Positions 25,619 to 27,202 of a DNA stretch of 32,921 nucleotides are shown here, in pieces. The DNA is from an uncultured Brachyspira sp. (GTDB lineage Bacteria; Spirochaetota; Brachyspiria; Brachyspirales; Brachyspiraceae). Both the position numbers and the translations under genes were made by a program. A model generated the notes under the pieces. It ran no database searches. It worked only from the letters and a program-made list of their open reading frames with translations, and was not told the DNA's origin. Each line of letters starts with the position of its first letter. Positions within the stretch are counted from its first letter, which is position 1. The stretch lies in NCBI RefSeq assembly GCF_944390845.1, contig NZ_CALXRM010000035.1, positions 1-32,921 of the forward strand, written 5' to 3'.

Positions 25619-27202
25619 TTATTTACGACTTTCTAAGTTTGAAGCAAAATTAGATAATATACTTCTTGTATTCTTGTATAATTTTGCATCATCTTCATAT
25701 TTTAATAATTCTATTCTTTTGCTGTCAATTTCTTTGATATTTGCTAAATAGGTATTAAAATATTCATCTATGATTTTATTGTATTTAGATACAACATTTT
25801 CTTCTTCATAAGCTTTTATAACTTTCTTAGCGAGTGTCTTTTTCCAATTTCCAGAGAATGACATAAATCCTGATAATATGAATACCACACTAGGTAAGAA
25901 AGATAATGATACACCCATAATATTTATTAATTTTATATTACTGGTTTGAAGAAGATTATAAGTAGGTATTATGCCAAGACTAGAAACAGCTATACTTGTT
26001 GAATTTTTAGCTGTTTTATTAGCTTCTTTATTGGCAAAGTCTTCTTCAGTAATAGCTAAAATACTATAAAGTTTTGTATCCAATTCTAAGTTGATACTAT
26101 TACATAATACTTTTATATCATCTTTTTTTCTGTATACATTATTATCATCTATAGCCTTGATAATATTATCTATATTTAATGTATTTTTATAAATATCATT
26201 AAATGATTCTTTAGCATTAATTTTAATTTTGGCTAAATTAATTTCTAATTTGTCATTTTCTTGGAATTCGCTTTTATTATCAATTATTTCAATATCAAAG
26301 TTTACACAATCTAATATTTTAGCATAATATGCATATTTGATACTTTCAGCAAAGTTGTTTTTTATTTCTTTTATTAGATTTGTATTATTGATAGAAAATG
26401 GGAAAAATCTTTGTCTTAAAGCAGGGTAATCAACTTCTTTATTATTACTGCTTTTAGAAATAAAATTCTTCAATACTTCAAATTTCTTATCAATAACACT
26501 TCCTAATTCATTTTCATCAAAAATATTAGCTTTAGAAAATATTACGAATATATTATTAAAACTATTTACAAAGTTTACAAGAGCATTTATATTAGTAACA
26601 TCTTCCTGAGAAAATGCATTTATATCACAAAGATAAATAAACATGTTATTTTTGCTGTATTTTCTTGTATCAAGTACATTTTCCTTATACTCTATAATTC
26701 TAAATAGCTTGGAATCATCTTGAAGATAATATTCTTCATTACTTGTATCTTCAGCATAAGGATTAGTATCTATGTTTTTGTCGAAAATAGCGTTTATGAA
26801 TGATGTTTTTCCTGAACTGTATCTTCCATAAACTATAATATCAAATGTTTCATTTATTTGAGTATATACATTTGATAGAAGTTCGGTTATCTTATCATTA
26901 TTTTTCTTGTCTATAGTGTTAATCTCATCATTGAGCTTATCAACTATATTTTGTATATTGATAAGATTGTAGTATAATTCAGAATCTTCTGATTCAAAAG
27001 AATTTTTTTTGTATTTTGTTAATTCATCGATACTTAGTCCTGTATTTTCTGCAAGCTTATCTAATAGGTCAAGAGTTATATTGTTAGCATTTCTTTCTAA
27101 TCTTGAAATATAATCTTGACGCACACCTAACATTTTTGCAAATTGGCTTTGTGTTAATTTCAAAATTTTTTCTCTAATATCTTTTAAATTAAAATCAATC
27201 AT
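25619..27202 (-). CDS. XRE helix-turn-helix fused to dynamin-like GTPase
   Basis: A 527-aa fusion that I do not recognise as a named family. Residues 5-66 form an XRE/Cro helix-turn-helix (KLTQSQFAKMLGVRQDYISRLER). Then comes a coiled segment and a GTPase domain with P-loop GRYSSGKTS (126-134) followed by FINAIF, as in bacterial dynamin-like proteins. A T-x-x-E-type switch region lies near 152-160. The usual DxxG is not evident and the base-specificity motif reads SKAN (223-226) rather than N/TKxD, so nucleotide choice is uncertain. A helical stalk-like region follows. Two hydrophobic stretches (about 400-417 and 424-452) could be a membrane paddle, and a coiled tail closes the protein. It has its own promoter (27245-27272) and is divergent from the HPr-like cluster. 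Confidence 0.85.
   Translation of the reverse strand: MIDFNLKDIREKILKLTQSQFAKMLGVRQDYISRLERNANNITLDLLDKLAENTGLSIDELTKYKKNSFESEDSELYYNLINIQNIVDKLNDEINTIDKKNNDKITELLSNVYTQINETFDIIVYGRYSSGKTSFINAIFDKNIDTNPYAEDTSNEEYYLQDDSKLFRIIEYKENVLDTRKYSKNNMFIYLCDINAFSQEDVTNINALVNFVNSFNNIFVIFSKANIFDENELGSVIDKKFEVLKNFISKSSNNKEVDYPALRQRFFPFSINNTNLIKEIKNNFAESIKYAYYAKILDCVNFDIEIIDNKSEFQENDKLEINLAKIKINAKESFNDIYKNTLNIDNIIKAIDDNNVYRKKDDIKVLCNSINLELDTKLYSILAITEEDFANKEANKTAKNSTSIAVSSLGIIPTYNLLQTSNIKLINIMGVSLSFLPSVVFILSGFMSFSGNWKKTLAKKVIKAYEEENVVSKYNKIIDEYFNTYLANIKEIDSKRIELLKYEDDAKLYKNTRSILSNFASNLESRK

Follow-up and report, generated by a model that had tools for sequence, protein, structure and literature searches.

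Bacterial dynamins such as BDLP, LeoA, the Campylobacter DLP1/2 proteins, IniA and DynA have a P-loop GTPase domain that leads into a long helical stalk with a hydrophobic paddle, and LeoA together with LeoBC makes up the Eleos defence system. LeoA/B/C have been described as bacterial dynamins (PMC4159319), and DynA can protect a bacterial population against phage (PMC8844932). Control proteins and the CapH regulators of defence operons, in turn, have the XRE fold and the logic of local autoregulation. The proteins considered here, which we call XRE-dynamins, share that fold and logic and differ in that the regulator lies on one chain with a dynamin. The window (the whole stretch of DNA analysed, 32,921 nucleotides of an uncultured Brachyspira) encodes one of them, which an earlier note had read as an XRE DNA-binding domain fused to a dynamin-like GTPase.

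Full-length XRE-dynamins are built in the same way and pass Pfam Dynamin_N; unlike the bacterial dynamins named above they carry an N-terminal XRE helix-turn-helix (HTH) and a G4 motif other than T/NKxD, and the window protein, in addition, lacks G3 and most of the paddle. Some likeness to Eleos exists, since one XRE-dynamin from Clostridia matches the PADLOC LeoBC model (3.2e-14) over its stalk and C-terminus; XRE-dynamin loci differ in having the HTH and no LeoA/LeoBC gene pair. The window protein itself has no match to the LeoBC model, and its gene is not part of a two-gene LeoA-LeoBC unit. Judged by its sequence, the window protein derives from the XRE-dynamins and is a shorter, solitary form that has lost G3 and most of the paddle. 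The family as a whole looks to be undescribed: we found no description of an XRE-dynamin fusion in the literature searched, which covers a minority of the subscription journals.

The reduced XRE-dynamin of Brachyspira

The fusion is real, and an artefact, frameshift or assembly error joining two genes is ruled out because, of 25 further genus genomes, 17 have the same ORF in full (75-83% identity); in one of the 17, which has a run of N, identity is 90% over residues 1-243. Both the HTH and the P-loop lie where the earlier note had placed them (Table 1). HTH_3 matches residues 5-60 well above the Pfam cut-off (E=3.2e-13, 49.9 bits vs 23), and the P-loop satisfies the G1 pattern GxxxxGK[ST], with its Pfam matches in the window protein weak and below cut-off (MMR_HSR1 5.9e-4, Dynamin_N 5.8e-3). 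At G2, T153 aligns with the invariant switch-I threonine of the relatives, but the surrounding segment is deleted. G3 and G4 are degenerate, as that note had said: DxPG is absent from the window protein and the genus members, with EYK(E/D) in its place; and every aligned genus member has SKAN where G4 would read T/NKxD. Since G3 is lost, efficient hydrolysis is argued against. Two hydrophobic stretches had been proposed, and only the second stands: residues 421-453 (peak Kyte-Doolittle 2.15) are the sole clearly hydrophobic stretch, whereas residues 400-418 are weakly hydrophobic and lie inside the least constrained part of the gene. The paddle is shorter than in the relatives, with one hydrophobic segment, and helices are predicted for the stalk in a low-pLDDT model.

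Table 1. Coordinates of the fusion gene, its features and related loci
Feature	Coordinates	Strand	Remarks
XRE-dynamin fusion gene	25619..27202	(-)	unbroken single ORF, 527 aa, no internal stop
Cro/XRE helix-turn-helix, residues 5-66	27005..27190	(-)	recognition helix VRQDYISRLE
P-loop (G1) GRYSSGKTS, residues 126-134	26801..26827	(-)	invariant in genus
G3 switch position, FRIIEYKEN, residues 167-175	26678..26704	(-)	from alignments; DxPG in full-length relatives
G4-like SKAN, residues 223-226	26525..26536	(-)	invariant in genus
Hydrophobic segment (reduced paddle / membrane segment), residues 421-453	25844..25942	(-)	Kyte-Doolittle and paddle alignment with relatives
Post-paddle motif GNWKKTLAKKVIKAYEEENV..., residues 451-483	25754..25852	(-)	conserved; common to most XRE-dynamins
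Sigma-70-type promoter, conserved	27245..27272	(-)	upstream alignment of genus orthologues
Private conserved upstream block, 90 bp (candidate own operator)	27310..27399	(-)	genus alignment
Cassette partner genes	L058:5188-7604		
Cassette partner genes	L060:4880-7283		
Cassette partner genes	L106:10699-13081		
Cassette partner genes	L107:5036-7448		
XRE-dynamin with C-terminal PLD-like region	L110:8018-10951		one 977-aa protein

That the P-loop domain is dynamin-like, and not a common AAA or ABC family, follows from profile comparison: the genus profile aligns with the XRE-dynamins over 479 columns (hhalign, 99.9% probability, E=5.4e-34), these relatives score above the Pfam cut-off for Dynamin_N, and the fold matches are of dynamin type. 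The AlphaFold models, built from shallow alignments, are of low confidence, with mean pLDDT values of 51 and 53; BDLP, LeoA, Campylobacter DLP and IniA are among their best PDB matches by Foldseek, LeoA and the Campylobacter dynamin pair being the first structural matches of the low-confidence model. In VIA-align, the best match of the full-length relative is BDLP (366 residues aligned, Z 11.9, rmsd 33.8), a supportive result only, and for the window model small and heterotrimeric G proteins tie with the dynamins, a list that alone is not dynamin-specific.

Purifying selection, estimated as pN/pS from genus orthologues at a synonymous divergence of about 0.5, is uneven along the gene. Residues 1-56 and the P-loop show no variation at all among the aligned orthologues, and the HTH and residues 119-150 around the P-loop (0.028 each) are the most constrained parts of a gene with an overall value of 0.20, from which we argue that DNA binding and nucleotide binding both still matter. 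The first hydrophobic stretch (residues 393-430) reaches 0.49, whereas the value is 0.10 for the membrane segment (431-450) and 0.076 for the post-paddle motif (451-483).

Within the phylum the fusion was found in this genus only, both in a single-sequence search, which gave no match outside the genus in the other sampled genomes, and in a profile search of 393 genomes; the remaining profile matches we take, from the part of the profile matched, to be XRE regulators or dynamins that lack the HTH. The window's own genome encodes a second dynamin-like protein (C3, L125:2550-4967), 805 aa long, which lacks the HTH and in which the G1, DTPG and NKID motifs are canonical. The survey of homologues recovered the same fusion within the genus, usually at the same locus, as well as full-length relatives in other phyla.

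The AsmA-like, DUF1318-like, HPr-domain and phosphoesterase neighbours are kept in 9 of 12 genus genomes examined, and the gene has moved elsewhere in the other 3. Identical neighbours in most genomes rule out mobile cargo in this genus, and absence of the HPr-like protein from the vicinity of the gene in three genomes rules it out as an obligate partner. Eight genomes of the genus are without the gene, which is therefore dispensable; in five of these, where a wider region was examined, the locus retains its AsmA/DUF1318-like end but not the gene. In the window, the gene is flanked by a DUF1318-like lipoprotein (Pfam match below cut-off) and by the HPr-domain protein (27915-29078; PF00381, 1.3e-10), which has a 300-aa extension and His15 and Ser46 sites that look degenerate, and which is present twice in some relatives (L090, L091, L096). 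No defence genes adjoin the fusion gene, which is stably chromosomal and stands alone. An OLD-like AAA_15 and TOPRIM protein with AbiLi/AriA PADLOC matches is encoded 7 kb away (16659-18620) and is possibly a solitary defence gene.

Full-length relatives on mobile elements and beside defence genes

Full-length relatives were reached through a 744-aa protein of a Carboxydocella plasmid (HTH_3 3.2e-10, Dynamin_N 2.8e-10), found by tblastn of plasmid records and then used as the query for others. These proteins, of about 740 aa and with intact DxPG, occur in Bacillota, Bacteroidota, Acinetobacter and Vibrio P2-like phages, and genome scans show them to be rare in Clostridia (4 of 398 genomes) and Bacteroidota (3 of 296). 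DxPG is present in all 13 aligned full-length members, LGxY and GGP occur in the hydrophobic paddle of each, and G4 is non-standard throughout, of the SHAH, SQAD or TRSD types; every relative found carries the HTH on the same chain.

Their placement differs from that of the window gene. Plasmids of Lactococcus, Lactiplantibacillus and Acinetobacter carry XRE-dynamins (the Acinetobacter frame is disrupted near its end), and in the Vibrio P2-like phages the gene has a homologue of late-control gene B on one side and the portal gene on the other; other members lie beside Thoeris, CBASS or restriction genes. One Lactococcus plasmid, pSD96_06, has two copies (L021:1191-3377 and 6820-8847) near a DUF262 gene, the paddle of the second being replaced by a much shorter one. 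A defence and mobile placement is thus strongly supported for the full-length relatives, and the link to phage defence raised in the earlier note is supported for the family by these neighbourhoods but not for the window locus, where nothing of the kind adjoins. The window protein looks like a domesticated branch because its full-strength relatives are found on plasmids, in prophage and beside anti-phage systems.

In four genomes the XRE-dynamin, a homologue 28-30% identical to the window protein, heads a cassette with three partner genes (Table 1): a helical protein of 278 aa; a membrane protein of roughly 390 aa that has a Tox-GHH nuclease domain, in which EGHHIN is invariant, and is hydrophobic in its C-terminal half; and a small protein that weakly resembles SMI1/KNR4. 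The L060 cassette directly follows a CBASS cyclase and a 4TM effector, and L059, a decayed cassette without the GHH gene, lies shortly downstream of Thoeris ThsA/ThsB. The partner proteins have no confident match in PADLOC-DB, and the cassette is a candidate new anti-phage or defence system. None of the three partners is found downstream of the window gene, which stands by itself, and no GHH homologue was found in the window genome. In the 977-aa protein of L110 we read the C-terminus, from its sequence motif, as resembling a PLD-type nuclease; a gene that looks like a type I methylase is nearby.

A promoter palindrome in relatives and a candidate operator of the window gene

A 16-bp palindrome, TATGCAAWTTTGCATA, stands without mismatch upstream of the operon in L058, L059, L060 and L107, and with two mismatches in L020; in all five it lies 7-9 bp upstream of a -35-like box (shuffle p<=0.001). 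All five members share the recognition helix RQD[YN][IV]SRLE, whereas seven members with other helices have no clear palindrome site; a related weak site (p=0.014) is present in one member with another helix, L108. The palindrome tracks the recognition helix, which links the HTH to regulation of the promoter next to it; that the promoters of full-length relatives carry an operator palindrome is, from these sequences, strongly supported.

The window gene has a promoter composed of TTGAAA (27267-27272), a 16-bp spacer and TATAAT (27245-27250), but TATGCAAWTTTGCATA is not found upstream of it (p=0.61), though the recognition helix is the same. The window genome contains no perfect copy of TATGCAAWTTTGCATA, and sites with one or two mismatches fall mostly within ORFs, so the 90-bp conserved block further upstream is put forward only as a putative operator. 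Mean pairwise identity in sliding windows is 81-92% across this block vs about 45-75% in most flanks; its 26-mer core (27327-27352) is single copy in the genome even when as many as 3 mismatches are tolerated, and it travels with the gene in the three genus genomes where the gene has moved. Searched with Rfam at the gathering threshold, the window yields four tRNAs and nothing else, hence no known RNA element in the block. Because no second genomic site of the block was found, any regulon of the window protein would be tiny.

What the fusion may do

Our best explanation, which we hold tentatively and at somewhat short of an even chance, is that the window protein is a domesticated, autoregulated XRE-dynamin in which nucleotide and membrane state feed back on DNA binding. 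The HTH would dimerise on DNA near its own promoter and set the level of the protein; the dynamin-type domain would bind nucleotide, with little hydrolysis; and the stalk and hydrophobic segment would contact the inner membrane or assemble there. Where the membrane is damaged or invaded, such assembly would be expected to change or release the HTH and move expression up or down, and the assembled protein would guard the membrane. That the two ends are coupled, and hence that promoter binding is linked to a membrane event as the earlier note had supposed, we infer; such feedback is probable. Consistent with this explanation are an HTH and P-loop unchanged across species, the long profile alignment with XRE-dynamins and the dynamin-type fold matches, a locus conserved in most genomes (with joint movement of gene and upstream block elsewhere), a core found once in the genome and the promoter palindrome in all five relatives with the same helix. 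Against it stand the absence of that palindrome at the window gene, the low confidence of the models and the eight genus genomes that do without the gene.

Possible as well, and on balance doubtful, is that one chain houses two functions between which no signal passes, the HTH merely autoregulating and the dynamin serving as an ordinary membrane guard. The kinship of the HTH with control-protein and CapH regulators, the palindrome at the relatives' own promoters and the DynA-like membrane protection known for bacterial dynamins (PMC8844932) would all fit; a pure autoregulator, however, could be a separate gene, yet the HTH shares the chain in every relative found, and constraint on the P-loop segment equals that on the HTH despite the loss of G3.

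We consider it quite unlikely that the protein is a lapsed dynamin now acting as a transcription factor, with the G domain a non-hydrolysing nucleotide-sensing switch and the membrane role lost or minor in the genus. The lost G3, SKAN, the shortened paddle and the unconstrained first hydrophobic stretch point that way, but the strong constraint on residues 431-483 and the tiny size of any regulon do not. Very unlikely is a DNA tether, in which the HTH would hold incoming foreign DNA and the dynamin would anchor that DNA to the membrane, so that its entry or replication is blocked directly: the mobile and defence-associated placement of the relatives would suit it, whereas the specific palindrome that their HTH has at its own promoter is typical of a local regulator, and no defence genes adjoin the window locus.

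For the full-length family, it is most likely that a membrane-acting dynamin is coupled to regulation of the operon that encodes it and, in certain lineages, to a nuclease as well. A bolder and rather unlikely extension is that XRE-dynamins are one-protein sensors, whose assembly on a stressed or phage-attacked membrane would pull the repressor (or activator) off its promoter and so turn on a defence operon with a nuclease; the spirochaete protein would be a domesticated, hydrolysis-dead form. DynA connects bacterial dynamins with phage resistance (PMC8844932), and XRE-dynamins bear on how such proteins sense and are switched on. Where a dynamin is joined to the transcription factor that controls it, and relatives have a clean operator and an operon with a nuclease partner, the state of the membrane, the bound nucleotide and the occupancy of the promoter can each be measured in one compact, testable system; if the sensor reading is true, it would be a new way to turn a membrane event into transcription.
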